This document shows, piece by piece, positions 7,623 to 37,235 of a DNA stretch of 64,000 nt. Source of the DNA: Acidihalobacter sp. (GTDB lineage: Bacteria > Pseudomonadota > Gammaproteobacteria > DSM-5130 > Acidihalobacteraceae); NCBI GenBank assembly GCA_027013225.1, contig JALUXU010000005.1, forward strand, positions 35,915 through 99,914, in the 5' to 3' direction. Within the stretch, counting starts at the first letter, position 1, and every line of letters begins with the position of its first letter. The notes beneath the pieces are model-generated. The model was not told the DNA's origin and did not search any database. It saw nothing but the letters and a program-made list of their open reading frames with translations. The translations under genes were made by a program, and so were the position numbers.

Positions 7623-7887
7623 GGTCGGGATTTTAGGGAAACGTGCCACGATTGGCTATGGAACCGGGGAATGCAGGCGGCCGCCGGTTTCGATCATCTT
7701 GGGTAAGGAGAGGTGATGACGGAATGGCTCCAGAATCGAGGCCGATAGCCATTAGCCGCGCAGGATTCAGTCTGGGCGCTAGGTTTTGCGCAGTCTTTAA
7801 TTTAAAAAAAGCCCCACGCCGGCTGAAAAGTGCTATAAGAAAAGCGAAGAGCGGCAAATCGAAACCGCAAGGGCAGCAAGAGACCTC

Positions 7888-10722: not shown

Positions 10723-10920
10723 AACTTTTAGGAGCCTGCTGAAGAATGTAATCCCTAATGAGATTAGCGGCTGATTCAAGTCCGTTTTTGAGGCCATTTA
10801 ATGGCAACAGTTGCGCTGATAATGTTTTTCGAAACTTTCCCTCGCCGCAGTCGATTCTTAATTGACTTCAATAGGCTTTGGGACATTCTTTTAGCTTAAT
10901 CCAGGAGAGACTTGCCGACC

Positions 10921-12144: not shown

Positions 12145-12374
12145 TCAAATTGCGGAACATGTGGCAACGTCTTTTTTTCCACGGCAGACGCTTCCTGCAG
12201 CGCATATTCCATACGGTCATAGATAGCGGATGATAGTGTGCTGATTTTCAATAACATTCTTCGAATATCGGCTAGGGATGAAATGTGTTCTGGTTGATGA
12301 AGATGAAAGTGCGCCCCAAATGCGAATCATTTTGGCTAAACTCGATCCTTGGCAGCAACGGAAGTGGATGAAGC

Positions 12375-13112: not shown

Positions 13113-13125
13113 CGAACCTTGAGAG

Positions 13126-13989: not shown

Positions 13990-14034
13990 AAGTCCGCTCC
14001 GGGGCGTGTGGGTGCCCCGGAGATTAATGTCGAC

Positions 14035-15450
14035 TCAGTAACGGTAATGATCCGGCTTGTATGGGCCTTCTACGGGAACATCGATGTAGGCAGCCTGTTG
14101 TGGCGTCAACGTCGTCAGATGAACGCCGATCTTGCCGAGATGCAGGCGGGCGACTTCTTCGTCCAGTTTCTTCGGCAACACATACACCTTGTTGGTGTAG
14201 GTTCCGTCGTTATTGAATAGTTCGATCTGTGCCAGCACCTGATTGGTAAAGCTGTTGGACATGACGAAGCTGGGATGTCCCGTGGCGCAACCGAGATTCA
14301 CTAACCGTCCTTCGGCCAGCAGGATAATGCGTTTGCCATCAGGAAAGACGATATGGTCGACCTGCGGCTTGATGTTTTCCCAAGTGTATTGGCGTAGGCT
14401 GGCGACGTTGATTTCACTGTCGAAATGGCCAATATTGCAGACGATGGCTTCATTTTTCATCGCCTGCATATGGTCGTGATCGATGACATGATAATTGCCG
14501 GTGGCGGTCACGAAAATGTCGGCTACTGGCGCAGCCTCTTCCATGGTGACCACGCGGTAGCCTTCCATCGCCGCCTGCAGCGCGCAGATCGGGTCGATCT
14601 CGGTGACCCAGACGGTGGCACCAAGGCCACGCAGACTCTGGGCGCAGCCTTTGCCTACGTCACCATAACCAGCGACCACCGCGATCTTGCCGGCGATCAT
14701 CACGTCCGTAGCCCGCTTGATACCGTCGACCAAGGATTCGCGGCAGCCGTAGAGATTGTCGAATTTTGATTTGGTGACAGAGTCGTTGACGTTGAAAGCC
14801 GGGAACGGTAAGCGGCCTTCTTTTTCCATGTGATACAGGCGATGCACTCCGGTCGTGGTTTCCTCGGTGACGCCCTTGATGCTGTTTACAAGAGTGGTAT
14901 AAAAGCCGGGCTTGGATTTCAAATGTTCGCGTATGGTAGCGAACAACACGGTTTCTTCCTCGTTCGCAGGATTATCGAGAATGCTGGGGTCTTGTTCGGC
15001 GCGCGCGCCCAGGGTGACGGCCAGGGTGGCGTCGCCGCCGTCGTCGAGAATCATATTGGCGGGCTGGCCGTCGGGCCAGTAGAAGATGCGATGGGTGAAT
15101 TCCCAGTACTCCTCAAGAGTTTCGCCCTTGTAGGCGAAAACCGGCACGCCGCGCGCCGCGATGGCGGCCGCGGCATGATCCTGCGTCGAATAGATGTTGC
15201 AGGAAGCCCAACGGACTTCGGCACCCAGGGCGAGCAGGGTTTCTATCAGCACCGCCGTCTGTATGGTCATGTGCAGGCTGCCGGCAATACGGGCGCCCTT
15301 GAGCGGCTGGCTGGCGGCATATTTTTCGCGTAGCGCCATCAGCCCGGGCATTTCCTTTTCGGCGATGGCTATTTCCTTGCGTCCCCACTCAGCAAGGGAA
15401 AGGTCTTTGACGATGTGGTCTTCGGCAGTTTTATTCACGATAGCGTTCAT
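14035..15450 (-). CDS. ahcY: S-adenosylhomocysteine hydrolase
   Basis: NAD-dependent enzyme that cleaves S-adenosylhomocysteine to adenosine and homocysteine, removing the product inhibitor of methyltransferases. Visible family features: [16 protein letters not shown] near residue 57, the NAD-binding motif [16 protein letters not shown] near 260, [17 protein letters not shown], and the C-terminal [11 protein letters not shown]. Length 471 aa is typical of the long form. GGAG ten bases upstream serves as ribosome binding site. The leader carries an SAH riboswitch, so expression should rise when SAH accumulates. Confidence 0.97.
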
Positions 15451-17243: not shown

Positions 17244-19226
17244 ATGCCTACGCGCAGAGAATTAGCCAACGCCATCCGGGCGCTTGCCATGGATGCCGTC
17301 CAGAAAGCCAATTCCGGTCACCCCGGTGCCCCTATGGGTATGGCCGACATCGCGGAAGTACTTTACAACGATTATATGCATCACAACCCGGGCAATCCGT
17401 CATGGCCCAATCGAGACAGGTTCGTCCTCTCAAACGGTCATGGATCGATGTTGCTCTACGCCTTGCTGCACCTGACCGGCTACGATCTGCCGATGGAAGA
17501 GATCAAGCGCTTCCGCCAGCTCCACTCCAAGACGCCGGGGCATCCCGAGTATGGCTATACTCCCGGCGTGGAGACGACCACCGGCCCCTTGGGGCAGGGC
17601 GTGACCAATGCGGTGGGCATGGCCATCGCCGAACGGGCGCTGGCGGCCCATTTCAACCGGCCGGGGCATGACATCATCGACCACTATACCTATGTCTTCC
17701 TCGGCGACGGCTGCCTGATGGAGGGCATCTCTCACGAGGCCTGCTCTTTGGCCGGCACCCTGGGGCTGGGCAAGCTGATCTGCTTCTATGACGACAACGG
17801 CATCTCCATCGACGGCGAAGTCGAAGGGTGGTTCACCGACGACACCCCGAAACGCTTCGAAGCCTATGGCTGGCACGTGATCCCCAAGGTGGATGGCCAT
17901 GATGCCGAGGCTATCAAGGCCGCGATCGAGCAGGCCCGCGCGGTGACCGACAAACCGACCCTGATCTGCTGCCGCACCATCATCGGATTCGGCTCTCCCA
18001 ACAAGCAGGGCAAGGAGGAGTCCCACGGCGCGCCGCTGGGCGAAGAAGAAGTGGCGCTGGCGCGCAAGCAGCTCGGATGGCCATATGGTCCGTTCGAGAT
18101 TCCCGCAGAAATCTATGCGGCTTGGGATGCGCGCGAGAAGGGCGCGCGCTGGGAGACCGAGTGGAATGAGAAATTCCAAGCCTATGCGGCCGCCCATCCC
18201 GAGCTGGCAGCGGAACTCAAGCGCCGGCTGGCCAACGAATTGGTATCTGATTTCGATGCCCACGCCGATGCCTTCATCAAGTCGGTGGCCGAAAAAGGCG
18301 AGAAGATCGCCACCCGCAAGGCCTCCCAGAACGCCATCAAGGCGTTCGCCAATTTCACCGATTTCATGGGCGGATCGGCGGATCTGGCCGGCTCCAACCT
18401 GACGCTGTGGCCCGAAGCGCGTCCGCTTAGCAAGGCTCAGCCGGATGGTAACTACATCCATTATGGCGTGCGCGAATTCGGCATGACCGCCATCGTCAAC
18501 GGCATCGCCCTCCACGGCGGCTTCGTCCCCTTTGGCGCGACCTTCCTCATGTTTTCCGAGTATGCGCGCAACGCCCTGCGCATGGCCGCGCTGATGAAGA
18601 TCCGCAACATCGAAGTCTTTACTCACGATTCCATTGGCCTGGGTGAAGATGGCCCGACCCACCAGCCGGTCGAGCAGATCGCGACTTTGCGCCTGATGCC
18701 CAACATGAGCGTCTGGCGCCCGTGTGACGCGGTCGAAACTGCCGTCGCCTGGAAGCTGGCGATCAAGCGCCTGCACACCCCCACCTCCCTGATTCTGTCG
18801 CGCCAGGCGCTGCCGCACCAGTCACGCAGTGACGAGCAGATTGCGGGTATCGCCCGCGGTGGATACATTCTTAGGGATTGCGATGGCGCACCGGACGCCG
18901 TGATCATCGCCACCGGTTCGGAGGTCGCCCTCGCCATGGGCGCGGCGCAGGCGCTCACGGACAAGAAGATTCGCGTGATTTCCATGCCTTCCACCGACAC
19001 CTTCGACGCTCAGGACGAAACCTACAAGGAATCGGTGCTGCCCAAATCCGTGCCGCGAGTGGCGGTGGAGGCTGGCGTCACCGCTTTTTGGCGCAAGTAT
19101 GTGGGACTGGAGGGTGCCGTGGTCGGACTGGATCGCTTCGGTGAGTCCGCTCCAGGCGATGAATTATTCAAGTATTTCGGTTTTACCGTCGATCATGTGG
19201 TCGAGGCGGTTAAGTCGGTACTCTGA
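17244..19226 (+). CDS. tkt: Transketolase
   Basis: Thiamine-diphosphate enzyme moving two-carbon units between sugar phosphates in the pentose phosphate and Calvin cycles. Family features: [19 protein letters not shown] at residues 22-40, [28 protein letters not shown], the ThDP motif [13 protein letters not shown] near 155, and the middle domain [22 protein letters not shown] near 460. Length 660 aa is normal. A GGGAG lies 11 bases upstream of the ATG. It is the first of five sugar-phosphate genes, as in many autotrophic proteobacteria, but a terminator separates it from gap. Confidence 0.97.
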
Positions 19227-19235
19227 TTTTTTTCG

Positions 19236-19259
19236 CGGCGGGAATACCGCCGTTTTTTT
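19236..19259 (+). terminator. Rho-independent terminator after tkt
   Basis: Stem CGGCGG / CCGCCG with a five-base loop, followed immediately by seven T residues, nine bases after the tkt stop. It lies only about 25 bases before gap, so gap needs its own promoter or read-through. Confidence 0.85.
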
Positions 19260-19264
19260 GCTGA

Positions 19265-20290
<1,026 letters not shown>

Positions 20291-20296
20291 AGTTTG

Positions 20297-20325
20297 CGGC
20301 GGGCGAAGAGTGTCTTCGCCCGCCG
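20297..20325 (+). terminator. Strong GC-rich hairpin between gap and pgk
   Basis: Perfect 12-bp stem (CGGCGGGCGAAG / CTTCGCCCGCCG) with a five-base loop, seven bases after the gap stop. There is no T-run after it, so it may slow polymerase, protect the gap mRNA 3' end or mark a processing site rather than terminate fully. Confidence 0.6.
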
Positions 20326-20400
20326 TGATTTACGAGGCCTTTGTCAAGTGTTTGTATGAATGTTTGGCAAAGTTCTTTTATTCCTAAGGAGGCTGTAATC

Positions 20401-21579
20401 ATGTCTTTTATCAAGATGACCGATCTTAATCTTGCCGGTAAGCGCGTCTTGATACGCGCCGATTTGAACGTGCCGCTCAAGGACGGCAAAGTGGCTTCAG
20501 ATAAGCGCATACGCGCCTCGCTGCCGACGGTCGATCAGGCGCTCGGGCAAGGCGCCAAGGTCATGCTCATGTCCCATCTGGGTCGGCCGACCGAAGGTGA
20601 ATACAATCCAGAGTTTTCTCTCGCGCCCGTGGCGGAATACATCGGCCAACTGTTGGGCCGGGAAGTCCGGCTAGTCAAAGATTACCTCGATGGCGTTGAT
20701 TTGGCTGATGGTGAACTGGTAGTGCTTGAAAACGTCCGCTTCAATAAAGGTGAAAAGGCGGATGATGAGACACTGGCGAAACGCTATGCCGCCTTGTGCG
20801 ATGTGTTCGTGATGGATGCTTTCGGCACCGCCCACCGTGCTCAGGCCTCGACCCATGGTGTCGCCAAATTTGCTCCGGTTGCCTGCGCGGGACCGCTGCT
20901 TGTAGCCGAATTGGAAGCGCTTGGAAAGGCTCTTAATGATCCAAAACGCCCGATGGTCGCCATCGTCGGCGGTTCCAAGGTGTCGACCAAACTGACAGTA
21001 TTGGAGTCTCTTTCCCAGAAAGTGGATCAACTTATCGTCGGCGGAGGGATAGCGAACACTTTTATCGCCGCAGCCGGATATAACGTCGGCAAGTCTCTGT
21101 ACGAACCCGAATTGATCGATACCTGCAAGCAGCTTTCGGCGGAAGCTCATGCCCGTGGAGCCGATATTCCGGTTCCTGTTGATGTGGTCTGCGCCAAAGA
21201 GTTTTCGGAAACCGCTAAAGCCGAATTGAAGGCCGTCAGTGAAGTGACTGATGACGACATGATTTTCGATGTGGGTCCCAAGACATCCGCCGAGTTCGCT
21301 ACCTTGTTGAAGAAGGCGGGTACGATCGTGTGGAACGGCCCTGTAGGCGTGTTCGAGTTTGATCAATTCGGCGAAGGCACCAAGGCGCTGGCCTTGGCAA
21401 TCGCTGAATCTAGCGCATTTTCGATTGCCGGTGGAGGGGATACTCTCGCGGCGGTGGACAAGTATGGCGTGGGCGATAAAATTTCTTATATTTCTACCGG
21501 CGGAGGCGCATTCCTTGAGTTCCTGGAAGGGAAAACACTACCGGCGGTAGCTATCTTGGAAGAGCGTGCCAAATCTTGA
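20401..21579 (+). CDS. pgk: Phosphoglycerate kinase
   Basis: Transfers phosphate between 1,3-bisphosphoglycerate and ADP. I start at [26 protein letters not shown] (20401), directly behind a near-perfect TAAGGAGG; the 20 upstream residues in the track are dropped. Further motifs: [38 protein letters not shown] and [15 protein letters not shown], and near the C-terminus [17 protein letters not shown]. Length 392 aa is normal for bacterial Pgk. Confidence 0.97.
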
Positions 21580-21670
21580 AGGAGTATGATTTGATTTCAA
21601 GTTTCATGTCTCGTCGGCTTCTGGCTGCGGTTAAGCGGCGATTGCTTACCCAAGCTGGAGACGAAAAACA

Positions 21671-23122
21671 ATGAGGCGAACAAAAATCGTGGCGACCTTG
21701 GGCCCCGCCACTGACCGTCCTGGCGTGATCGAAGCCATCGTGCGGGCAGGTGTCGATGTCGTTCGCCTAAATTTCTCCCATGGCAGTGCGGATGATCATC
21801 GCCGTCGCGCCGAACAGATTCGATCTGAGGCTGCGCGCCAGGGACGCACGATCGGTGTGCTCGGGGATTTGCAAGGCCCAAAGATACGAATCGAGCGATT
21901 CGTTGAGAACAAGGTTTTGCTGGAAGAAGGTGCCGACTTCACTCTCGACGCGGAACTCGAACGCGATGCCGGCGATGCTACTCACGTTGGCCTGACATAC
22001 AAGTCGTTGCCGCAAGATGTCGTCGTCGGCGATACCTTGCTGTTGGACGATGGCCGTATCGTCTTGGAAGTGCAAAGTATCGAAGGGCCGCGGATCCATG
22101 CTCGGGTCGTTGTGGGCGGGGAATTGTCCAACAACAAAGGGATCAACCGGCTGGGCGGTGGATTGTCCGCCGAAGCTCTGACCGACAAGGATCGCGCCGA
22201 TATCCAAACCGCCGCGCAGATCGAGGTCGATTATCTCGCGGTGTCCTTTCCCCGTTGTGCGCAAGATATGCACCAGGCAAGGCAATTGCTCAAAGAGGCG
22301 GGATGGGATGCTGCTTTGGTGGCTAAAATCGAACGCGCAGAAGCAATCAAGCCCGGCGTGATCGATGAAATTATCCTGGCATCGGAAGTCATCATGATCG
22401 CGCGGGGAGATCTTGGAGTCGAAATCGGCGATGCCGAGCTGCCGGGAGTGCAGAAGGATCTCATCCACAAAGCAAGAAGCATGAATCGGGTGGCGATTAC
22501 CGCGACCCAGATGATGGAGTCCATGATTACCAGTCCGATACCGACCCGCGCGGAAGTACTGGATGTGGCTAACGCGGTGCTCGATGGTACGGATGCGGTC
22601 ATGCTTTCGGCGGAGACGGCCGCAGGAAAATATCCATCCAAGGCGGTGGCGGCCATGGGCCGTATCTGCGAGGCGGCTGAAAAACGGAGAGACGCTCGCG
22701 AATCTGAGCATCGCATCGATAGCCGCTTCGAATTTGTGGACGAAGCCATCGCCATGGCCGCCATGTATACCGCCAACCATCTGGATGTGCGGGCGATTGC
22801 AGCGATGACGGAATCGGGATCGACCGCCCTGTGGATGTCGCGTATCAGCTCAGGGATTCCTATTTATGCCTTGACGCGCCAGGAACGAACAGCTAGAAAA
22901 GTGGCTCTCTACAGAGGGGTCTATCCTATGATTTTCGAGACCATTCAGCCCAGTCACGCCGAAGCTAACCGTAAGGCCATGGCATTGCTACAAGAAAAAG
23001 ATGCGCTAGATGAAGGTGACCTTGTCATTTTTACTAAAGGCGACATGATGGGAATGCATGGAGGCACCAATGCCATGAAAATATTGCGCGTGGGAGATCC
23101 GCTCCCAGCCGATGGCGCATGA
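21671..23122 (+). CDS. pyk: Pyruvate kinase
   Basis: Converts phosphoenolpyruvate and ADP to pyruvate and ATP. Typical sequence from the first residue ([37 protein letters not shown]), then [13 protein letters not shown], the active-site loop [23 protein letters not shown] and [40 protein letters not shown]. The C-terminal domain is present. Length 483 aa. GGAG lies upstream of the ATG. It follows pgk by about 90 bases with no terminator seen between them. Confidence 0.96.
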
Positions 23123-23314
23123 CCCTCTAAGTTTTCAGGGACTCTCGGATTATATTGGGGGTGCGTTTATGGAGATGAAAAAAGCTTGAGTTCTCGTGCG
23201 ATTTACGCTGGTGAACAGTCTTACGTTTCACTCTGTAATCTGGAGTAACGCATCATTCATAATGAGTAAAGCTAGTTTCTTTTTCAGGTAAATTCACATC
23301 AACAGGAGATCAGA

Positions 23315-24379
23315 ATGGCTCTTATATCTTTGCGTCAACTTTTGGATCATGCGGCTGAGCATGGTTATGGCATGCCGGCGTTCAATGCCAATAACATGGA
23401 ACAGGTACACGCCATCATGCAGGCAGCGGCAGCGGTTGACAGCCCTGTTATCATTCAGGCGTCTGCCGGTGCCCGTAAATATGCTGGCGAGCCCTTTTTT
23501 CGTCATCTGATCCTGGCGGCGGTCGAACAATATCCCGATATTCCGATCGTGCTGCATCAGGACCACGGCGCCGAACCGGCGGTGTGCATCCGTTCCATCC
23601 GTTCCGGCTTCACCTCGGTAATGATGGACGGATCGCTCATGCCGGACATGAAAACGCCATCGACTTACGAATACAATGTGGACGTGACCGCCAAGGTTGT
23701 CGAAATCGCTCATGCTGTAGGCGTGTCCGTGGAAGGCGAGCTGGGTTGCTTGGGCTCGCTGGAGACGGGTATGGCGGGCGAAGAGGACGGAAGCGGCGCC
23801 GAAGGTGTGCTCGACCACAGCCAGCTGTTGACCGATCCAGAGGAAGCGGCTGATTTTGTCAAGAAGACAGGCGTGGATGCGCTCGCCATCGCTATTGGCA
23901 CCAGTCATGGAGCCTACAAATTCACCCGCCCGCCGACCGGTGACATTCTGGCCATCGAGCGGGTCAAGGAAATCCATGCGCGCATCCCGAATACGCACCT
24001 GGTGATGCATGGTTCTTCCTCGGTGCCGCAGGAATGGCTGCAGATCATCAACAACTACGGCGGCGACATGGGCCAGACTTACGGCGTCCCGGTCGAAGAG
24101 ATCGCCGAAGGGATCAAGCACGGTGTGCGCAAGGTTAATATAGACACCGACCTGCGCATGGCGAGCACTGGCGCGGTGCGCAAATTCCTGGCGGAAAACC
24201 CCAAGGATTTCGATCCGCGCAAATGGCTGAAAGCTTCGACTCAGGCTATGCAGGACATCTGTCAGGCGCGTTTCGAGGCCTTTGGTTCGGCCGGACAAGC
24301 ATCGAAGATCAAGCCTGTGTCTCTGGATGTCATGACGGAACGCTATGCCAAGGGTGAGCTGACGCCAAAGGTGAATTGA
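23315..24379 (+). CDS. fba: Class II fructose-bisphosphate aldolase, CbbA type
   Basis: Zinc-dependent aldolase acting on fructose-1,6- and, in the Calvin cycle, sedoheptulose-1,7-bisphosphate. [30 protein letters not shown] is the usual CbbA/Fba N-terminus; metal-binding HQDHGAEP lies near residue 80, [14 protein letters not shown] near 140, and [36 protein letters not shown] follow. Length 354 aa. Good AGGAGA upstream. Last gene of the sugar-phosphate cluster, closed by a terminator. The 190 bases before it may hold a separate promoter. Confidence 0.96.
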
Positions 24380-24407
24380 ACGGTTGATTGATCACAATGG
24401 CTCAAAG

Positions 24408-24435
24408 AAGAAAGGCGGTTTTGACCGCCTTTCTT
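24408..24435 (+). terminator. Terminator of fba
   Basis: Perfect 11-bp stem AAGAAAGGCGG / CCGCCTTTCTT around a six-base loop, 28 bases after the fba stop and followed by an AT-rich stretch. Confidence 0.85.
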
Positions 24436-24456
24436 TATTACTCAGTTTTAGAGTAA

Positions 24457-24487
24457 AAAAATAGCCCCGTATGAACGGGGCTATTTT
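24457..24487 (-). terminator. Terminator of groEL
   Basis: Inverted repeat AAAATAGCCCCGT / ACGGGGCTATTTT with a four- to five-base loop, 26 bases beyond the groEL stop. On the minus strand it ends in a run of T residues, so it serves groES-groEL. Confidence 0.9.
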
Positions 24488-24513
24488 GTGCATGGTTAAA
24501 CCTTGGGACTGAT

Positions 24514-26178
<1,665 letters not shown>

Positions 26179-26202
26179 TCAATTGTTTGCCTGGAGTAAC
26201 GA

Positions 26203-26493
26203 TCAGCCTTCGATCACTGCGACGATGTCGTCTTCGCGCATGACCAATACCTCTTCGCCATCGATCTTGATTTCGGTGCCGGCATACTTCCCGAACAGCA
26301 CCTTGTCTCCGACTTTGACATCCAGAGGGCGGACATCGCCGTTCTCGAGGATTTTTCCATTGCCCACGGCCAGCACTTCTCCGCGGATCGGTTTCTCTGC
26401 AGCGGTATCAGGAATGACGATGCCACCTGGGGTGGTGCGTTCTTCTTCCATGCGCTTGATGACCACGCGATCATGTAGTGGACGAATATTCAT
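26203..26493 (-). CDS. groES: Co-chaperonin GroES (Hsp10)
   Basis: Lid of the GroEL chamber. Begins [18 protein letters not shown] at 26493, with GAGGAG at good spacing; the five additional residues in the track are not used. The mobile loop [18 protein letters not shown] and the C-terminal [24 protein letters not shown] are standard. Length 96 aa. Confidence 0.98.
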
Positions 26494-26544
26494 GTTTGAA
26501 CTCCTCAATATATTAAGTTTCGGATGGTCGTGACTCCCGGGTTT

Positions 26545-26598: not shown

Positions 26599-26830
26599 GG
26601 CCTCAAGCAAAAAATTTTTTGATAAGAGCTTGTCGGGTCCGAATGAAATGTGCGGGCGAGGGTTTCATTGAAAGGAGCTGTTTGCTGTGCGGCATCGTAG
26701 CACAATGCATCTTTTTCCGTTCTTCAACGTCTTCAAGACTGTAACCTGAGTGTATCGATCCTTTTGGCCCAGCGGGGTAAAATAAAGTTTCGAGGTTTCA
26801 ACAATGATTTACTCATGGAGAAGTTGGGCC

Positions 26831-28171
26831 ATGCCTGTGGTCGCCAAGATGATTTTCCGTAGTCTTGTTCTTTTCCCAAGACGAGTGCTGATGGGTCTGG
26901 CGATGGCTTTGCCGATCACTGCCATGGCGGCTGCACCACACCAGCCATGGCCATTGCAGCGGGTGTTGCAAACAGTCGCCGAAAATGCCCCGGCAATTCT
27001 TGCCGCTCGAGCCGGCATCATCGAAGCGAAGGCGCATGTCGGCCAGGCGCGTTCCCACTGGTTCGGCAGCGTCGATCTTTATGCAATCGACACCCATTAC
27101 AACGTACCCATGTTGATCGAGCCGATCACTTCCTTCCCGCCGCCGAAAACATTTGGCAAAAAGTTTGCCCGCAATCAGCTCGCCTACGGCATCGAAGCCA
27201 AGCTGCCGTTGGATTTCAGTCTGCGCATCGCCGCCGAAGTCGATGCCGCCCGCGCGGCTGAGCGCGCCACTCGCTGGAATGCCCGCAATGTCGAGCTGCA
27301 GACGCTGCTGACTGCATCGGCGGTGTATCGCAACCTTCAGGCTCTGGATGGAAAGCGTGTCGCGCTGGAAGAGGAGCTCAAGGCATTGCGTCAGGCCGAG
27401 GCGACGGCGCGCGGCTCACTGCAGGCCGGTTTGTCCACCCGCCTCAAATTGCTGCGGGTGCAATCGGGGGTGGAAAAAGTGCGCGCGGCTATCGCTGGTG
27501 TCAATGGCAAGATTGCCTCACTCAAAGCCGATTTGGCCAGCCTGATGGGACTCGATGCCTGGGCAGGAAACGTCATGCCACTCACGACACCGCCTGCGAG
27601 CATGCCGGGCGGCGAGGGGGTCGCGCCCTTCGTCCAGGCCGCGGAGCAGGCCAATGCGGCTACCGGTTACAAGATGAGTGCGGCCAAGCGCGCGCTGCTG
27701 CCACAGTTCTTCATTGCCGCCCGCTTCAACCAGAATGGCCGGCATGATTTTCATGACGATTTCTACACGCGGGCCATTCAGTTTGGATTCAAGTGGAATC
27801 TGTGGTCGGGCTTCGGGCAGATGAGCGCGATCGACGCCGCGCAGGCCGCCCATATCCAGGCCAGCGAAAAAGCGCGTGGCGCGCGTCTCAAACTGACCTC
27901 CATACGTGCTTCGGCACGCGCTCGCTGGCACGCTGAATCTCTGGCATGGGAAGCCAATCGGGCCGAGGTGGCCGCCGCCAAAGAAGCAGCTGGCAGTGCC
28001 CGAGGGCAATTCAAGGCCGGATTGCTCACCGCCACCTCGTTGTTGCAGGCTGAGGCGGTGCTCGCCGGGGCCCGCGCCGCCGAAACAGCCACCTTGGCTC
28101 GCTGGTGGGAAGCCAACGACGCGCTGCGCTATGCCGAAGGCTTGCCTCCCATGACAGTGAGGACGCGTTGA
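26831..28171 (+). CDS. TolC-family outer membrane efflux protein
   Basis: Outer-membrane channel of a tripartite exporter. I start at 26831 (MPVVAKMIFRSLVLFPRRVL), where GGAG stands ten bases upstream, rather than at 26804. A signal peptide ends near ITAMAAA. The mature protein has two long alpha-helical OEP repeats (LQTLLTASAVYRNLQALDGKRVALEEELKAL and the matching C-terminal SARGQFKAGLLTATSLLQAEAVLAGARAAE), typical of TolC-type proteins, with aromatic-rich strand segments between. About 446 aa. It heads a plus-strand row with an HlyD-like adaptor, an ABC ATPase and two ABC-2 permeases. Substrate unknown. Confidence 0.85.
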   Translation: MPVVAKMIFRSLVLFPRRVLMGLAMALPITAMAAAPHQPWPLQRVLQTVAENAPAILAARAGIIEAKAHVGQARSHWFGSVDLYAIDTHYNVPMLIEPITSFPPPKTFGKKFARNQLAYGIEAKLPLDFSLRIAAEVDAARAAERATRWNARNVELQTLLTASAVYRNLQALDGKRVALEEELKALRQAEATARGSLQAGLSTRLKLLRVQSGVEKVRAAIAGVNGKIASLKADLASLMGLDAWAGNVMPLTTPPASMPGGEGVAPFVQAAEQANAATGYKMSAAKRALLPQFFIAARFNQNGRHDFHDDFYTRAIQFGFKWNLWSGFGQMSAIDAAQAAHIQASEKARGARLKLTSIRASARARWHAESLAWEANRAEVAAAKEAAGSARGQFKAGLLTATSLLQAEAVLAGARAAETATLARWWEANDALRYAEGLPPMTVRTR

Positions 28172-28266
28172 TCGATGTATGACGCCATTGGTTCACGTCT
28201 ATCACTCCTGATGGAACCTCATAATGACCGTTTACGCGGAGTTACGACGAATCGCCGGAGAAAAAT

Positions 28267-29289
28267 ATGATCAAAACAATGATCCGTTTGACGCAATTGT
28301 TGAGTGCAGGGACACTGGGACTGGCCTTGTCCACGTCGATCGCCCAGGCCGCCGATGCCCTGACGCTATATGGCAACATTGATATCCGGCAGGTCAATCT
28401 TGCGTTTCGGGACATGGGCCGTATCAATGACATCCGCGTGCATGAAGGCGACCCTGTCAAGGCGGGTGAAGTGTTGGCCGAACTCGACCAGACACGTTTC
28501 CTCGACACAGTCCGCAAGGCCGAAAATGCCGTGGCGGCACAGAAAGAAATCGTGGCCAAATTGCTGGCCGGCACCCGGCCGCAAAAAATTCAGCAGGCCC
28601 GCGAGCGGGTGGCCGCGGCCAAGGCTGGCGTGCGCCTTGCAGAAATTACGCTCAAACGCATCCGCTCCGTGGAGAAAAAAGGCTATGTGCCACCGGAAAA
28701 GCTCGATGAGGCGCAGGCCAAATACAACCAGGCGGTTGCCAATCTGGCGGCCGCTGAAGCCGGCTTCAATCTGGCTCTGGAAGGGCCGCGGCCGCAGGAT
28801 ATCGCTGCAGCCAAGTACAAGCTGGCGTCCATGGAGGCTGAGTTGGCCCTGGCCAAACGGGTGCTGCAAGACTCCAAACTGATCGCGCCGGCCAACGGCG
28901 TGGTAGAAAACCGGGTGCTCGAACCGGGCGACATTGCCAGTCCGCAGGCACCGGCATTGATTCTGGCGCTGAACAACCCTGTCTGGGCACGCGCCTATCT
29001 GCCCGAACCGGAATTGGGCAAGGTGCGTGAAGGCATGCGCGCCTGGATCGAGAGCGATTCATTTCCAGGCAAGCGTTTCGCTGGATGGGTGGGATTCATT
29101 TCACCGACTGCACAGTTCACGCCGCAGCCAGTGCAGACTCCCAGCGTACGTACCACGCTGTCCTATCGGGTGCGCATCTATGCTTGCAATCCGGAGGGCG
29201 AATTGCGTCTGGGCATGCCGGTGACGGTGCAGATCCCCTTGAATCAGCCGCAGCCGGTTCCCGCCTCTCAACAACGCTGTGCACAATAG
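28267..29289 (+). CDS. HlyD-family membrane fusion protein (YbhG-like periplasmic adaptor)
   Basis: Periplasmic adaptor linking inner-membrane exporter and TolC-like channel. Signal peptide to about residue 27 (TSIAQA). A split biotinyl-lipoyl domain (GRINDIRVHEGDPVKAGEVLAELD and KLIAPANGVVENRVLEPGDIASPQAP) brackets a coiled-coil hairpin at about residues 75-205 rich in Ala, Lys and Glu. The barrel domain follows with VWARAYLPEPELGKVREGMRAWI. Length 340 aa resembles E. coli YbhG. The ATG has CGGAG upstream. The next gene starts four bases after the stop, indicating an operon. Confidence 0.88.
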   Translation: MIKTMIRLTQLLSAGTLGLALSTSIAQAADALTLYGNIDIRQVNLAFRDMGRINDIRVHEGDPVKAGEVLAELDQTRFLDTVRKAENAVAAQKEIVAKLLAGTRPQKIQQARERVAAAKAGVRLAEITLKRIRSVEKKGYVPPEKLDEAQAKYNQAVANLAAAEAGFNLALEGPRPQDIAAAKYKLASMEAELALAKRVLQDSKLIAPANGVVENRVLEPGDIASPQAPALILALNNPVWARAYLPEPELGKVREGMRAWIESDSFPGKRFAGWVGFISPTAQFTPQPVQTPSVRTTLSYRVRIYACNPEGELRLGMPVTVQIPLNQPQPVPASQQRCAQ

Positions 29290-29293
29290 CCCC

Positions 29294-30835
29294 ATGAACA
29301 CCCCCGTACTGGAGCTGCAACAGGTCGGGGTCCGGGAGGGCGCTCGGCGGCGTGCCCGCTGGCCGCTGCGGAATCTCGATCTTGTAGTGGCCAAGGGTGA
29401 TGTGCTGGGCGTGGCCGGCATCGGCAAGAGTCTGTTGCTCGAACTGGCTTGCGGATGGCGCGCGCCCGACGAGGGCCGGGTGCTCATCGATGGGTATGTC
29501 AGCCTCCGCCTGCCAAGCGCGGTGTCCGCCGACGTGGTCTGGCTCGGCGAGGGCCTGCCGCGTTGGCCCCGGCTCAAGGTGCTCGAAGCGCTCAGCCTAC
29601 AATCCACCCTTCACGCCGGCACGCAGAACAAGGCTGAATTGTATGCGGCATTGGAAACGGTCGGCCTCGCCGGACGCGCTGCCACATCTTGCCGCTGTTT
29701 GACGGCCGATGAGATGAGGCGCCTGCAACTCGCCTTGCTGTGGATGTGTTCGCCCCGGCTCGTACTCATCGATGCCGCCGTGCTCAATGTGGACGACACG
29801 CTGACCGAGGCGGTGTGCCGGAGGATCCAAGCCTTGGCTCAAGCCGGTACGGCCTTTGTGTTGGCGGTGGTCGAGCCGCGCTGGGCAGAGGCTTGCAAAC
29901 GTCTGCTGTGGCTGCCGGAAGGCCGCGGCATCGATGCGGAGCAAATGCCCTCCTTGAAGACGGTAATCGCTGCTGCCGGCAGGGATCGCGCGCTTTCGCT
30001 GGCGCACGGGATCAGTGCCCGCGTCGTCTCCGGCGAACCAGGCGCGGTGAGGCTGGTGGCCGCTGCCGATGACCGCTGGCCGGAGGATGTCGAGATTGTT
30101 ACGCGGCCGCCGACGCTGGGTGATGCTTTCGTGTGGCAGGCCACTGGGCGGCTTGGCAACAAGGTCGTGCCGGAACGGTCGCAGGCTGCGAATGAATTCT
30201 TGCTGCGGCTTGCCTTGCCCGGCCTGAGAGAGATCGTGGCGGGCGTGGAGGCGCAAGACGAACTGCATCTCCGGAACGGCGAGATTGCGGCGCTGACGGG
30301 TGACGACGCGGGCGAACTGCTCGCTGCACTGGCCGAAGGGCGCCGCGTGGATGGCGTGCCGGTCGAGGTATTGGGACATAAGCGCGCTGATTTTGCTCTG
30401 CGCTCCCGGATCGGTTATCTACCGCCGCAGCCACCGGCGCAGATGGATTACCCGGCTCAAGCCTGGCTTGGGTGGCGCGCCGGCGTATTCGGGGTCTCGG
30501 TAAAACAGGCGAGCGCGCAGATTCTCGACTGGAGCCAGCGTTTCGGTCTGCAGGCGGCTTTGAGCCGTCCATGGGAAACGTTGCGCTTTGCCGAAAAGCG
30601 CCTGCTGCAGATTCTCGCCGCCTGGTTTCAGCGTCCGGCGTTGGTTTTGCTGGATCGCCCCTTTGCCGGGCTTGATCCCCGGCAGTCGGAAATACTGCGC
30701 TTCGCCTTGCTGGAATGGGCCGCTCAAGGGGCGGGGGTCGTCTATCACGCCGGGCACCGGGGCGAGACCTGGTTCGCCGATCGGGCGTATGCGCTGCAAT
30801 CGCTGCCGGCCGCGGGGCGGGAGGTCCGAGCATGA
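29294..30835 (+). CDS. Tandem ABC ATPase of YbhF type with degenerate nucleotide-binding sites
   Basis: Position and length (513 aa from MNTPVLELQQ) fit a YbhF-like double ABC ATPase that would drive the two downstream permeases. Its motifs are eroded. In half 1 Walker A is kept (GVAGIGKS, residues 39-46), but the signature is CLTADEM instead of LSGGQ and Walker B ends LVLIDAAVLNVDD without the catalytic Glu. In half 2 the Walker A position reads ALTGDDAGE with no GKS, the signature position reads TLRFAEKR, and Walker B is LVLLDRPFAGLDP with Arg instead of Glu; the H-loop region YHAGHRG retains His. The frame is intact with no stop, so the protein is probably made. Whether it hydrolyses ATP is doubtful. 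Confidence 0.8.
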   Translation: MNTPVLELQQVGVREGARRRARWPLRNLDLVVAKGDVLGVAGIGKSLLLELACGWRAPDEGRVLIDGYVSLRLPSAVSADVVWLGEGLPRWPRLKVLEALSLQSTLHAGTQNKAELYAALETVGLAGRAATSCRCLTADEMRRLQLALLWMCSPRLVLIDAAVLNVDDTLTEAVCRRIQALAQAGTAFVLAVVEPRWAEACKRLLWLPEGRGIDAEQMPSLKTVIAAAGRDRALSLAHGISARVVSGEPGAVRLVAAADDRWPEDVEIVTRPPTLGDAFVWQATGRLGNKVVPERSQAANEFLLRLALPGLREIVAGVEAQDELHLRNGEIAALTGDDAGELLAALAEGRRVDGVPVEVLGHKRADFALRSRIGYLPPQPPAQMDYPAQAWLGWRAGVFGVSVKQASAQILDWSQRFGLQAALSRPWETLRFAEKRLLQILAAWFQRPALVLLDRPFAGLDPRQSEILRFALLEWAAQGAGVVYHAGHRGETWFADRAYALQSLPAAGREVRA

Positions 30836-31950
30836 AGGCGCTCGCCATGCAATGGCTGCTCACCAAGGAGCTGCGCGAGGCCTGGCGCGATCCCGGCATG
30901 TGGCTGGTCAATTTGGCGCTACCGGTCGCCCTGATGCTGCTCATGGGCTACGGGATGCAGATGTTCGCGCACCGCGTGCCACTGGCCGTCGTCGACGCCA
31001 AGCCCAGCGGGGCCACACAATCCTTTCTGTCGGCCCTTGGCAACACCGATTATTTCACCCTGCGCAACTATCCAGATTTCCCGGCGGCGCGCCGGGCCGT
31101 GCAGGATGGCCGCGCCTTCGGCGTGGTCTGGCTGCGCGGCGATTTTTCTCGCCGCCTGCAACTCGGGCAGCATCCCGAGATCGGCGTCTTCGTCAACGCT
31201 ACCAATGCCAATCATGCGCGCATCGCCGAAGGCTATCTCACCCTGGCCTGGCATGCCTGGGTCGAGCAGTATCTCGGTGACCATGGCCGAAAATTCCAAC
31301 CGCCCGTGGAGAGCACCACCTTGCTCTGGTACAACCCGACCCTGAGTTCGCAGCGCTATTACATTCCCGGCGCCGTGGTGCTGATCATGACTGTGGTCGG
31401 CACCCTGTCGGCGCTGCTGCTGATGGCGCGGGAATGGGAGCATGGCGGCATGAAGCTGCTGCGCGCCAGTGGCGCGAATCTGCGCCAGGTGTTCATCGCC
31501 AAGCTTATAACGGCCTTTCTCGGCACCTATGCCGGTCTGCTGGCATGCGCGGCGCTGGCTGCCTGGCTGTTCCATGCTGCGCCGCTCGGCGGCTGGCTGC
31601 CGGTGCTCGGCTTTTCGGCGCTGCTCCTGCTGGCGCTCAACGCCATGGGCCTGCTGATCTCCGCCGGCACGCGCAATCAGGAAAGCGCGTTGCAGATTTC
31701 ACTGTTGGTCACCTTTCTGCCCGCCTTCATCCTGTCCGGTTTCGTGTTCGCGATCTATTCCATGCCGGCGGCGATCCGCCCCTTCACCGATCTCATCGCC
31801 GCGCGCTTCGGCATGCATGGCCTGCTGACGCTGTTCGACGCCGGGCGCATCGGCATGGTGCTGTGGTGGAACGGCGTGGGCTTGGTGCTGCTCACACTGG
31901 TGTTCGGTCTGCCTGCCATGCGTAACGCCTTGCGCAGGAGCCGCTCATGA
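30832..31950 (+). CDS. ABC-2 type permease (YbhS-like)
   Basis: Inner-membrane exporter subunit. The true start is MKALAMQWLLTKELREAWRDPG at 30832, overlapping the stop of the ATPase gene by ATGA; the 39 upstream residues in the track are a shadow. An N-terminal helix (GMWLVNLALPVALMLLMGYGMQ) is followed by a soluble loop of about 150 residues and five C-terminal helices, including IPGAVVLIMTVVGTLSALLLMAREWEHG and LLVTFLPAFILSGFVFAIYSMP, the ABC-2 signature area. 372 aa. It probably pairs with the next gene product. Confidence 0.88.
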   Translation: MKALAMQWLLTKELREAWRDPGMWLVNLALPVALMLLMGYGMQMFAHRVPLAVVDAKPSGATQSFLSALGNTDYFTLRNYPDFPAARRAVQDGRAFGVVWLRGDFSRRLQLGQHPEIGVFVNATNANHARIAEGYLTLAWHAWVEQYLGDHGRKFQPPVESTTLLWYNPTLSSQRYYIPGAVVLIMTVVGTLSALLLMAREWEHGGMKLLRASGANLRQVFIAKLITAFLGTYAGLLACAALAAWLFHAAPLGGWLPVLGFSALLLLALNAMGLLISAGTRNQESALQISLLVTFLPAFILSGFVFAIYSMPAAIRPFTDLIAARFGMHGLLTLFDAGRIGMVLWWNGVGLVLLTLVFGLPAMRNALRRSRS

Positions 31951-33080
31951 TGCGCTGGCTGGCGGTGTTGCGTCTGGAGCTGGCCCGCCTCAAGGGAATG
32001 AAGAAAACCCGCATGGTGCTGCTGGCGACGCCTTTGATTCCACTGATCGTATTCGGCTATGCGGTCAATTTCGACCTGACGCGCATTCCGTACGCAGTCT
32101 ATAACGAAGATGCCGGTTATCTGTCGCGCGATCTGGTGGCGCGTTTCGCCGCCGACCCCACCTTCCATCTGGTGGCGCGCCTGCAGAACGATCGCCAGAT
32201 CCGCCCGCTGCTGGATGATGGACGTGCGGCCTTCGTGTTGCACATAGACGCGAATTACACCCGCAATCTGCTCACGCACCGGCCCGCGCCGGTCGAAGTG
32301 CTGATCGACGCGCGCAACGCCACGGAATCGAGTACCATCGAGTCCTACGTCAATCACATCCTGCTCGCCTACAACGCCCAGTGGGTGGTGGCACATCATC
32401 ACCCCCCCGCGCCCGCGCTGCTGGTGATCCGCAACTGGTACAACGCCAATCTCGATTCGCGCTGGTTCATCCTGCCCGGTATCATCGGGGTACTGACCTT
32501 CGTACTGACCTTGATGGTGACCGTGCCGAGCATTGCCCGCGACCGCGAGCAGGGTTTGTTCGAGAGCTACCGGACGTTGCCGCTGCGCGCCTTCGATCTG
32601 CTGGTGGGCAAGGGTCTGGCGGGCATGGCGATCGGTTTTCTGGGGGCGGCCTTCATCGCCCTGATGGCGGTGATCTGGTTCGGCGTGCCGCTGCGAGGGA
32701 GCATCGCCGCACTATTCGTCGGCCTGCTGGTGTTCCTGTTCGCCGCCAGCGGCATGGGACTGTGGGTCTCCACCCTGACGCGCACCCAGATGCAGGCCGC
32801 TTTCGGACTGTTTCTGCTGTTCGTGCCGGCGGTGCTGCTGTCCGGCTTCATCTTCCCCATCAGCAAACTGTCGGCGCCGGTGCAGGCGCTGAGCCTGCTC
32901 GATCCGGTGCGTTACTTCCTTACCATCGCCCGCGGCGTGTATCTGCAGGGTGGCGGCTTTGCCGAAACCGGCACGGCCATGGCCCATCTTTCCCTGATCG
33001 GCGTTGTCGTCTGGATCGGCGCCTGGCTCACGCTGGCCTTGCAGATGCGCCCACTCGGCCCCTACAGTGGCGCTGATTGA
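31947..33080 (+). CDS. ABC-2 type permease (YbhR-like)
   Basis: Second permease of the exporter, overlapping the previous stop by ATGA. Architecture is the same: helix near the N-terminus (MVLLATPLIPLIVFGYAVNFD), a soluble domain with RIPYAVYNEDAG and LIDARNATESSTIESYVNHIL, then C-terminal helices with IPGIIGVLTFVLTLMVTVPSIARDREQGLFE-like sequence and FVPAVLLSGFIFPISKL. 377 aa. The gene pair plus ATPase and adaptor matches the YbhGFSR layout, with a dedicated TolC-like gene added. Confidence 0.88.
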   Translation: MMRWLAVLRLELARLKGMKKTRMVLLATPLIPLIVFGYAVNFDLTRIPYAVYNEDAGYLSRDLVARFAADPTFHLVARLQNDRQIRPLLDDGRAAFVLHIDANYTRNLLTHRPAPVEVLIDARNATESSTIESYVNHILLAYNAQWVVAHHHPPAPALLVIRNWYNANLDSRWFILPGIIGVLTFVLTLMVTVPSIARDREQGLFESYRTLPLRAFDLLVGKGLAGMAIGFLGAAFIALMAVIWFGVPLRGSIAALFVGLLVFLFAASGMGLWVSTLTRTQMQAAFGLFLLFVPAVLLSGFIFPISKLSAPVQALSLLDPVRYFLTIARGVYLQGGGFAETGTAMAHLSLIGVVVWIGAWLTLALQMRPLGPYSGAD

Positions 33081-33083
33081 CGC

Positions 33084-33113
33084 TAATTAATTCATTGATC
33101 CATTAATTAATAA
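33084..33113. promoter_or_regulatory. AT-rich imperfect palindrome upstream of the CDF gene
   Basis: In a GC-rich neighbourhood, the 90-base gap before the CDF gene is strikingly AT-rich and contains a near-palindrome, TAATTAATTCATT-GATC-CATTAATTAATA. It could be an operator or an UP-element-like promoter region for the CDF-sigma pair. No known motif was recognised. Confidence 0.35.
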
Positions 33114-33173
33114 TATTTATAATTAATGATGGTTCATCATTCGTCATGAGGTAACGCTTCATGACTTGCCGCC

Positions 33174-34391
33174 ATGTCAAACGCCTCCACAGCAAATCCC
33201 GATATCGATCTTGAAGAACGCGATAAGCGGCGTTGGATGCTCGCTTCGACCGGCTTCAACAGTGCGCTCGGCCTGGCCAAGTTCGCCTGGGCCTGGTGGA
33301 GCGGCAGCCTGATCGTGATGGCCGACGCCGTGCACAGCCTGTCCGACGTCATCGGCGCCTTGCTGGTGTATGCCGCCGTCCGCTTTTCCACCCACCGTTC
33401 GGCCCGCTTTCCTCTTGGGCTGCACAAACTCGAGGACATGGCCGCAGTGCTCAGTGGCCTGGCCGTGCTCGCGGCGGCTTATGAGATCCTGCGCAGTGCA
33501 TTCGGTACCGGCCATGCGCCAGCGGCCATGCCATTTTTGACCAGTGGCTTCATTGCCGTCCTCCTGCTGCTGCAAATCGGGTTCTATCTGGCCGAAAAAA
33601 AGGCGGCGGATCGCCTGGGCTCACCCGGCCTGCGCAGTGATGCGGTCAACTGGCTGGGCGATATCGGCGCGGGCGTGGTGGTCATCGTCGGCGTCATCGC
33701 GCACGGCCTGGGGATCCCGTATGCACAGCAAGTGGCGGTCGGCATCATCGTGCTGCTGATTCTGCATGGCGCCTGGGAGGTGCTTCGCGACGGCCTGCTG
33801 TCCCTGCTCGACGCGGCGGCTCTGGGTGATGAACGCGAGCAGGTCATGCAGCTATTCGAGCATCATCCCGGCATACAGACCGTGCGCGACGTGATTCTGC
33901 GCCGCGCCGGCAGCGCGCTGTTTCTGGCCGCCACGGTCGAGGTCTTGCCGACCGGCCTGAAAGCCGCCCATGAGGTGATCGACCAGCTCGAAACGGCGCT
34001 CAGAGCGAAGCTTCCGCGGCTGGAAACCATCGCCATTCATTTCGAGCCGGCCACTCAAATGCGCCACCGCCGGGTGAGCCTGTACGAAGAAGATAGACGC
34101 ACCCTGGCCAGGCGTTTTGGACAAGCTGCCTGGCTTATGCTCGAGGAAAAAACCGCCGATGGCAGCACACCACAGCAGGTATGGATCGCCAATCCATACC
34201 GGGAAGCCGCGCGCGGCAAGGGCATCAAACTGGCCGCCTGGCTGATCCGCTTGAATGCCGAACGGGTACGCTTCGCGGCTGATACGCCGCTCGACCCAGC
34301 CCTGGCCGAATTGCTGGAAAGCGCCGGGATTGCCCTGGATGTTGAAGTGAATACAGAAGATCAGCATACAGGATTGTCGAAAGGCGGCTAA
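33174..34391 (+). CDS. Cation diffusion facilitator fused to a NifX-like domain
   Basis: Metal:proton antiporter of the inner membrane. Residues about 20-215 are the CDF membrane domain with metal-site motif MADAVHSLSDVIGA in TM2 and SDAVNWLGDIGAG in TM5. The TM5 motif has Asn where zinc transporters have His, so iron or manganese may be preferred. A cytoplasmic ferredoxin-like CDF domain follows (VRDVILRRAGSALFLAATVEVLP). The last roughly 100 residues (LARRFGQAAWLMLEEKT...NPYREAARGKGIKLAAWLI) resemble the dinitrogenase cofactor NifX/NifB-C domain, found on a subset of CDF proteins. 405 aa. No strong ribosome binding site is visible. The ECF sigma gene starts 34 bases later. Confidence 0.83.
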   Translation: MSNASTANPDIDLEERDKRRWMLASTGFNSALGLAKFAWAWWSGSLIVMADAVHSLSDVIGALLVYAAVRFSTHRSARFPLGLHKLEDMAAVLSGLAVLAAAYEILRSAFGTGHAPAAMPFLTSGFIAVLLLLQIGFYLAEKKAADRLGSPGLRSDAVNWLGDIGAGVVVIVGVIAHGLGIPYAQQVAVGIIVLLILHGAWEVLRDGLLSLLDAAALGDEREQVMQLFEHHPGIQTVRDVILRRAGSALFLAATVEVLPTGLKAAHEVIDQLETALRAKLPRLETIAIHFEPATQMRHRRVSLYEEDRRTLARRFGQAAWLMLEEKTADGSTPQQVWIANPYREAARGKGIKLAAWLIRLNAERVRFAADTPLDPALAELLESAGIALDVEVNTEDQHTGLSKGG

Positions 34392-34425
34392 ACTTCTAGC
34401 TTTGATCAATAACAGGACGACAAAC

Positions 34426-34989
34426 ATGCGTGACACGCCCATGGTGCCTTGCGCCCTGCAAGCCTGGCAGGCCAGCGAGCAGGAATTGCGAGGATATTTG
34501 CGCAAGCGCTTGCAAGCCGATCGTGATGAAGACTACAGCGAGGATCTGCTCCACGAGGTGTTCTTGCGCCTGATGCGCCAGGGCGGCAAGTTCTGCGAGG
34601 TGGACAATGCCCGCAGTTGGCTGTTCCATGTCGCCCGCAACCTGTTGATCGACCATCAGCGTCGTCGACATCCCACGGTCGAACTACCGGATGAACTGGC
34701 CTGGGATCCTCCGGATGACCTGGCCCCCGTGGATAGCCTGGTGGCCTGTCTGCCGCGAGCGCTGGATTGCCTGTCACCCGAGGACCGGGACGCGCTCATC
34801 CACTGCGATCTTGGCGGCCTCACCCAGGCTGAATACGCTGCAATGCATGGCTTGAGCTTGTCCGGCGCGAAATCCCGGGTGCAGCGTGCCCGTAGTAGAT
34901 TGCGCAGAGTATTGGTCGAAACCTGCGGTGTGCGCTTCGACGCGGATAGCGGGCAGGTGTGTTGCTACGTGCCGCCGGGTGGTGAATGA
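34426..34989 (+). CDS. ECF-type sigma factor, SigZ-like
   Basis: RNA polymerase sigma factor with regions 2 and 4 only. Region 2: EDYSEDLLHEVFLRLMRQ and ARSWLFHVARNLLIDHQRRR. Region 4: DLGGLTQAEYAAMHGLSLSGAKSRVQRARSRLRRVL. The C-terminus carries a short Cys-containing tail (ETCGVRFDADSGQVCCYVPP), as in SigZ-like factors, which could sense redox or metal. The start is ATG 34426 with AGGA upstream; the track's TTG start is rejected. No anti-sigma gene is adjacent. It lies 34 bases behind the CDF gene, so a metal-linked role is possible but inferred from position only. Confidence 0.82.
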   Translation: MRDTPMVPCALQAWQASEQELRGYLRKRLQADRDEDYSEDLLHEVFLRLMRQGGKFCEVDNARSWLFHVARNLLIDHQRRRHPTVELPDELAWDPPDDLAPVDSLVACLPRALDCLSPEDRDALIHCDLGGLTQAEYAAMHGLSLSGAKSRVQRARSRLRRVLVETCGVRFDADSGQVCCYVPPGGE

Positions 34990-36267: not shown

Positions 36268-37235
36268 ATGAGGCACTATACGCAGCTTACCCAGGAGGAA
36301 CGATACCAGATTCACGCGCTTATGAAAGCCGACCACAGCCTTTCCGAGATTGCTCGAATCCTGGGACGATCGAAGTCCACGATCGGTCGTGAGCTTCGGC
36401 GCAACAAAGGGTTGCGTGGTTATCATCCGAAGCAGGCGCACCGATTGGCTCTGGAGCGACGCCAGGCGAAGTACGCGCCACGCATCCCGGAGGAGACCTG
36501 GCAATGGGTCGAGCGCCTTCTGCGCGAGGACTGGCGCCCTGAGCAGATCAGCCGCTGGCTGGCGCGGGAGAAGCGGCGCCGTGTCAGTCACGAGCGGATC
36601 TACCGGCACATTCTTCAGGACAAGCGTGCCGGGGCGACCTGCACTCGCCTCTGCGTTGCCAAAAGCCTCGCAGGAAGCGCTACGGGGCTTATGACCGTCG
36701 AGGCAGGATCCCGAATCAGAAATCGATCGAGGAGCGCCCGGCCATCGTGGAGCGCCGCAGCCGCATCGGAGACTGGGAACTGGATACGATCATCGGCAAG
36801 GGCCACTCGGGCGTGCTGGTCTCGGTGGTGGAGAGGAAATCCAGACTGACCCTGCTGGCGAAGGTGCCCAACTAGACGGCCCGGTCCGTGCGTCAGGCGA
36901 TCCTTGATCTGCTGGGCCCTGTGGAGGATCGTGTCCATACACTGACCGCTGACAATGGAAAGGAATTCGCGCATCACGAAGCCATTGCGCAGGCGCTTTC
37001 TGCCGGGTTCTGCTTCGCCCACCCCTATGCCTCCTGGGAACGGGGGCTGAATGAGAACACCAATGGTTTGGTACGGCTGTACTTCCCCAAGGACAGGGAC
37101 TTTTCCACCATCACCGATGAAGAAGTGCAAATGGTTATGAACAGGCTCAACAACCGACCCAGGAAATGCCTTTGCATGAAAACACCGAATCAGGTATTTT
37201 TTGGCATAAAACCACCCGTTGCACTAGCAAGTTGA
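36268..37235 (+). pseudogene. IS30-family transposase, frameshifted and with internal stop
   Basis: The N-terminal part reads MRHYTQLTQEERYQIHALMKADHSL and SEIARILGRSKSTIGRELRRNKG, the IS30 helix-turn-helix. In the G-run at 36631-36634 one G appears missing: restoring it continues as GDLHSPLRCQKPRRKRYGAYDRRGRIPN. The DDE domain follows with IGDWELDTIIGKGHSGVL and LTADNGKEFAHH, but an in-frame TAG at 36873-36875 interrupts after LLAKVPN. The end, WERGLNENTNGLVRLYFPK and MNRLNNRPRKCL, is intact. Two lesions mean no full-length transposase without suppression and frameshifting. Confidence 0.9.

Follow-up and report, generated by a model that had tools for sequence, protein, structure and literature searches.

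A tandem ABC protein with neither composite site complete, retained under purifying selection in an ABC-2 exporter operon of Acidihalobacter

ABC transporters are defined by ATP-driven nucleotide-binding domains (NBDs). What a tandem-NBD protein does in an exporter operon once its catalytic motifs are gone is the question raised by one gene in the window analyzed here, a 64,000-nucleotide stretch of contig JALUXU010000005.1 from Acidihalobacter sp. The initial annotation described this gene as an eroded ABC ATPase in an otherwise intact operon, and proposed either that export uses another energy source or ATPase or that the protein is a structural or regulatory remnant. Its account of the reading frame holds: the ORF runs uninterrupted over 513 codons from an ATG at 29294 to a stop ending at 30835 (+ strand), the stop of the HlyD-type adaptor gene ends at 29289, just before this start, and the first permease gene begins at 30832, giving an ATGA overlap. 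Pfam recognizes ABC_tran in two stretches of the product (62.9 bits). The operon has the order TolC, HlyD, ABC protein, permease, permease, with a CDF transporter and a SigZ-like ECF sigma factor downstream:

26804..28171, + strand: TolC-type outer membrane efflux protein (Pfam OEP, 6.9e-32; orthologue in the second species, dN/dS 0.16)
28267..29289, + strand: HlyD/YbhG-type periplasmic adaptor (Pfam HlyD_D23; NCBIfam PRK03598 secretion protein HlyD, 1.7e-94, under its cut-off; distance ratio 1.06, without acceleration)
29294..30835, + strand: degenerate tandem-NBD ABC protein, a putative pseudo-ATPase (ORF, Pfam, homologue alignment, HHalign, AlphaFold)
30832..31950, + strand: ABC-2 permease P1 (ABC2_membrane_3; Pfam/NCBIfam)
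31947..33080, + strand: ABC-2 permease P2 (ABC2_membrane_3; Pfam/NCBIfam)
33174..34391, + strand: CDF cation-efflux transporter, accompanying the operon in both species
34402..34989, + strand: ECF sigma factor, SigZ-like, the final gene of the cassette common to both species

Upstream of the cassette, genes for transketolase, GAPDH, PGK, pyruvate kinase, aldolase and groESL are clustered at 17244-26508. Near its 3' side, an ORF at 36268-36849 with an N-terminal HTH_38 resembles a truncated IS30-type transposase. No anti-sigma gene was recognized adjoining the sigma factor gene at 34402-34989, which is linked to efflux genes in both species. Repeat and promoter scans added nothing further.

The protein was aligned with YbhF-type homologues, namely 36 full-length tandem ATPases from homologous operons in which both Walker A motifs are canonical and the signatures and Walker B Glu are conserved. 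The alignment locates the following changes:

29408..29431, + strand: NBD1 residual Walker A GVAGIGKS (residues 39-46), in which the stretch from the preceding turn to the Lys is three residues shorter than in homologues, leaving the P-loop strand three residues short (AlphaFold strand 37-42, helix 45-52)
29699..29713, + strand: NBD1 signature position, LTADE in place of LSGGM
29759..29776, + strand: NBD1 Walker B LVLIDA, catalytic Glu replaced by Ala (identical change in the second species)
30293..30316, + strand: NBD2 Walker A position LTGDDAGE, where a 10-residue deletion takes out GK[ST] and the start of the next helix (identical deletion in the second species)
30581..30595, + strand: NBD2 signature position LRFAE (LPLG[IFY]KQRL in intact homologues)
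30641..30658, + strand: NBD2 Walker B LVLLDR, catalytic Glu replaced by Arg, within LLDRPFAGLDP, so that the D-loop GLDP is retained

The motif losses reported initially were thus confirmed: one of two Walker A motifs survives, in NBD1, and both catalytic Glu are missing. Both signatures are indeed replaced as well, with the refinement that the NBD2 signature is non-canonical already in the 36 intact homologues. In these, the canonical site is made up of the NBD2 Walker A (GANGAGK), Walker B (LDEP) and His (TTH) with the NBD1 signature LSGGM; the other site combines the NBD2 signature LPLG[IFY]KQRL with an NBD1 switch ST-Y in which Tyr takes the place of His. One canonical site beside a non-canonical one is therefore the usual state of the family. 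It is the canonical one that is destroyed in the degenerate protein (P-loop deleted, Glu to Arg, LSGGM to LTADE), and by this alignment the residues that hydrolysis there would need have been lost. At least one composite site with a canonical Walker A, signature and Walker B Glu is present in all 36 homologues and absent here and in the second species.

The remaining Lys-Ser P-loop and LVLIDA sit at the non-canonical site of the family, where the P-loop is kept in both copies. Slow ATP hydrolysis by way of non-canonical residues at this NBD1 Walker A/B site is a very improbable explanation: Lys45, Ser46 and Asp160 are still present, and the signature completing the site is non-canonical even in intact homologues, but the catalytic Glu is Ala, the switch region reads VEPRW and lacks the His, the Q-loop Gln is absent, and the site would have to work with LRFAE as its signature and with the shortened P-loop strand.

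Comparison of profiles by HHalign relates the degenerate protein to the YbhF-type tandem domain by domain. Degenerate NBD1 scores 116.6 against intact NBD1 and 99.0 against intact NBD2, degenerate NBD2 scores 110.2 against intact NBD2 and 90.2 against intact NBD1, and the full-length alignment to intact tandem homologues is collinear (233.6). The other host ATPases tested reach at most about 60, scores that are lowered because these were single sequences and not profiles. The match of each domain to its counterpart, in the same order, leads us to prefer divergence from a YbhF-type ancestor over replacement by an unrelated ATPase, which was rejected. An origin as the CcmA haem-exporter ATPase was likewise rejected; CcmA is the top NCBIfam match of NBD1 (that of NBD2 being PQQ_ABC/GldA-type), at 85-86 bits against cut-offs of 131.6 and 195, and the neighboring genes are ABC-2 efflux genes and not ccm genes. 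AlphaFold, with a 24-sequence alignment, predicts two NBD folds (mean pLDDT 83.4, pTM 0.83). The protein therefore shares with the YbhF type two NBDs per chain, collinear with homologues, and an operon with an HlyD adaptor and two ABC-2 permeases; it departs from the type in the canonical composite site, and its permeases depart in the coupling helix E-x-G-T-[MFL]-[ED]-x-L-[ML].

The entire cassette recurs in G001, the second species sampled from the genus, with an ATPase 64% identical and showing the same motif losses, and sequencing or frame error could be rejected on this ground. Among 164 columns invariant at 95% or more in the 36 intact homologues, 52 are kept here and 57 in the second species; in 66 of the 164 both species have the identical derived residue, and in 12 both have a gap. 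Most of the change therefore predates the split of the two copies, and the recurrence of the same lesions together with the 66 common derived columns is more than chance. Beyond this second species, the 56 nearest genomes, 399 genomes of the phylum and a scan of GTDB contigs with two peptide patterns, a scan that may leave out near relatives, yielded no degenerate ATPase; nor did we find plasmid carriers of the cassette. The two sister-genus genomes examined have the intact system only, and homologous operons elsewhere have an intact ATPase. A search with P1 gave matches in 61 of 369 genomes of the class, and in 23 of 31 in one order rich in close P1 homologues. An ATPase with the Walker B Glu adjoins the permease at 37 of 40 permease loci, the other three being the pair from this genus and a locus available only as a short stretch.

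Is the gene simply decaying? The initial annotation had called for a dN/dS test and had named frameshifts in relatives as evidence against its reading. Because the carriers are two genomes only, the selection estimate rests on a single pair: ω (dN/dS) of the degenerate ATPase is 0.360 (bootstrap 95% 0.278-0.449), from one pairwise comparison by NG86, a simple codon method, on GC-rich sequence at moderate dS. For the same pair it is 0.075 for HlyD, 0.163 for TolC, 0.139 for P1 and 0.194 for P2, and 0.107 for an intact paralogous ATPase found in both genomes. Neither copy of the degenerate gene has a stop or frameshift at a dS of 0.74, and the indels between them are multiples of three; neutral simulation at half the divergence gave a mean of 8.3 stop codons and a minimum of 1. 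Formerly invariant columns are 75% conserved between the two copies versus 59% for other columns (Fisher p = 0.0009). These three lines, ω, the absence of stops and the better-kept formerly invariant columns, indicate a gene that is constrained, less so than its neighbors, and on this comparison purifying selection has acted on it since the split of the two copies. Neutral decay was rejected at the level tested, and neither mark of a pseudogene, frame disruption or dN/dS near 1, was seen. The low ω, the lack of frameshifts and the identical motif losses in the relative together argue that this is not simple decay.

A slower form of decay would have the ATPase function lost in an ancestor and the operon eroding as a remnant that survives by recent transfer of the cassette. 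Constraint is in fact relaxed, as ω is about 3 to 5 times above that of the paralogous ATPase and the adaptor, and in the linker it is about 0.8. The cassette is also mosaic. It occupies 26804-34989 here and 6303-14444 of locus L086 in the second species, flanked by groES and a metallophosphatase gene in the former and by a LysR gene and a pyridine-nucleotide oxidoreductase gene in the latter, and its synonymous divergence falls from about 1.1 in TolC to 0.16 in CDF, being near zero over much of the CDF gene, compared with 1.5-2.2 for the paralogous operon in the same pair. The different chromosomal contexts and the falling divergence suggest that the cassette was probably moved, recombined or transferred, so that its presence in both species is not necessarily due to vertical descent. 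We nevertheless consider erosion of this kind quite unlikely, given the uninterrupted frames at such divergence, the constraint on both permeases and the concentration of residual conservation at formerly invariant columns.

The operon is not otherwise intact, as had been stated, because divergence extends to the two permeases, both at invariant positions and in the helices that we take, by what is known of ABC-2 exporters, to couple to the NBDs:

31438..31464, + strand: P1 coupling helix EHGGMKLLR for ERGT[ML]EALM, with Arg211 gained (in 0 of 36 other permeases)
32547..32573, + strand: P2 coupling helix EQGLFESYR for EQGTFDQLL, with Arg209 gained (in 0 of 35 other permeases)

The two gained Arg lie at the same homologous position. 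P1 keeps 72 of 123 invariant columns and P2 79 of 129, versus 119 of 123 and 127 of 129 in the intact paralogue of the host. Relative to homologue distances, divergence in the genus is 5.4x for the ATPase (an approximate ratio, as this branch is saturated), 2.9x for P1, 1.8x for P2 and 1.06x for the adaptor. By these measures both permeases have co-diverged with the ATPase at the NBD-contacting helices while the adaptor evolved normally. As a suggestion, Arg211 and Arg209 may contact acidic positions such as Glu86 and Asp385, which lie close to where the Q-loops used to be.

This co-divergence bears on whether another ATPase drives the exporter. A search for a second ATPase able to pair with the permeases yielded one candidate of the same type, in an intact paralogous YbhF-type operon on contig 52 (L084 2756-7837) that comprises HlyD, a tandem ATPase with canonical motifs and two permeases, and that is also present in the second species and the sister genus. 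Among 41 ABC_tran matches in the genome, 13 regions were examined; none held a clear unpaired YbhF-type ATPase, and most have membrane-protein neighbors of their own. P1 and P2 could thus be energized in trans by the contig 52 ATPase, the degenerate subunit being a spare or regulator, and the completeness of that operon in both species, with no clear orphan ATPase as a competitor, speaks for this. P1 and P2 have however lost much of the coupling-helix sequence that the permeases of the paralogue keep, which disfavors borrowing, and the paralogous ATPase would need to fit two very different interfaces; we judge this arrangement improbable.

The partners further suggest what the complex does. 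TolC and HlyD are retained and constrained, which points to efflux. This is difficult to reconcile with a non-pumping complex in which the permeases and a pseudo-ATPase form a sensor, gated channel or envelope-stress signaling unit comparable to SUR1 or CFTR, tied to the CDF transporter and the ECF sigma factor. The linkage of both these genes in both species and the conserved residual P-loop at the non-canonical site are in keeping with such a unit; in addition to the constrained efflux partners, the fact that no anti-sigma factor or signaling domain was recognized weighs against it, and we hold it to be an unlikely role.

Of the explanations first offered, we therefore retain a selected structural or regulatory protein as the best fit and disfavor the second ATPase. 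The protein is rather probably a pseudo-ATPase: a tandem NBD of the YbhF type that has diverged, no longer hydrolyzes ATP and is maintained by selection, with a proposed role in docking on and regulating its own permeases. It would still dock under P1 and P2 as scaffold or regulator, and might bind a nucleotide weakly through Lys45-Ser46 and Asp160 of the non-canonical site. Transport through P1-P2-HlyD-TolC would then not be powered by hydrolysis in the degenerate protein, and the pump appears, judging from its genes, to have been rebuilt to run without burning ATP at this subunit. The most economical substitute would be coupling to a proton or Na+ gradient in the membrane domains. This is the weakest step and a doubtful one, though possible; the evidence for ion sites in the permease sequences is mixed, P1 having gained the titratable residues E284 and D336 and P2 having lost the Glu at position 233 that is conserved in 35 of 35 P2 homologues. 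Rusticyanin-like proteins occur in all five family genomes searched, below the curated cut-off, and hint that the family consists of acidophilic iron oxidizers. The full proposal, a natural ABC-2 tripartite exporter taken off ATP, with a non-hydrolyzing docking or gating NBD, both coupling helices refitted, a proton or sodium gradient as its drive and a probable acidophile host, is tentative and somewhat unlikely as a whole. For annotation, the gene at 29294-30835 should not be labeled an ATP-hydrolyzing efflux ATPase.

A selected exporter with neither site complete, whose permeases changed together at the NBD contact, would offer a test in nature of the idea that ion gradients can power ABC membrane domains, for which the evidence so far comes mainly from LmrA and MsbA and their engineered truncations. 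The membrane domains of MsbA and LmrA without their NBDs transport by proton coupling (PMC4979069; PMC6155054). They offer a precedent for proton-coupled ABC membrane domains, but are engineered truncations of another exporter type, whereas this is a natural ABC-2 system with a pseudo-NBD. The ArsB carrier, cited in PMC4979069 as working on the proton gradient alone with a possible boost from the ATPase ArsA, belongs with ArsA to protein families unrelated to the degenerate exporter. The closest solved folds to the predicted model are the tandem NBD chains of OppD/DppD of Mycobacterium tuberculosis (PDB 8j5s, 8wdb), which also have two NBDs per chain but belong to importers of another family, at 14-18% identity.

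ABC exporters with one degenerate nucleotide site, such as TM287/288, TAP, CFTR and BSEP, are common, and in those reviewed one of the catalytic sites is retained (PMC7756269). The degenerate protein resembles them in its asymmetric NBD pair and in having lost motifs, the catalytic Glu among them, at one site; in contrast to these exporters, neither of its composite sites is complete. No description of a selected exporter in this state was found in the literature searched, an absence that is weak evidence. The nearest known system is YbhFSR of Escherichia coli (with YbhG) and its homologous operons, reported in E. coli to perform Na+(Li+)/H+ antiport and tetracycline efflux (PMC7190983). The order of adaptor, tandem NBD ATPase and two ABC-2 permeases is the same, identity to homologues from the best-matching order is about 41-50% for the permeases and 51-59% for the adaptor, and the HHalign scores support domain-by-domain orthology of the ATPase. 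Unlike the YbhFSR type, the ATPase here is only about 21-25% identical, its catalytic site is destroyed and the C-terminal extension after NBD2 is missing, the coupling helices are altered, and genes for TolC, CDF and SigZ are linked to the operon.
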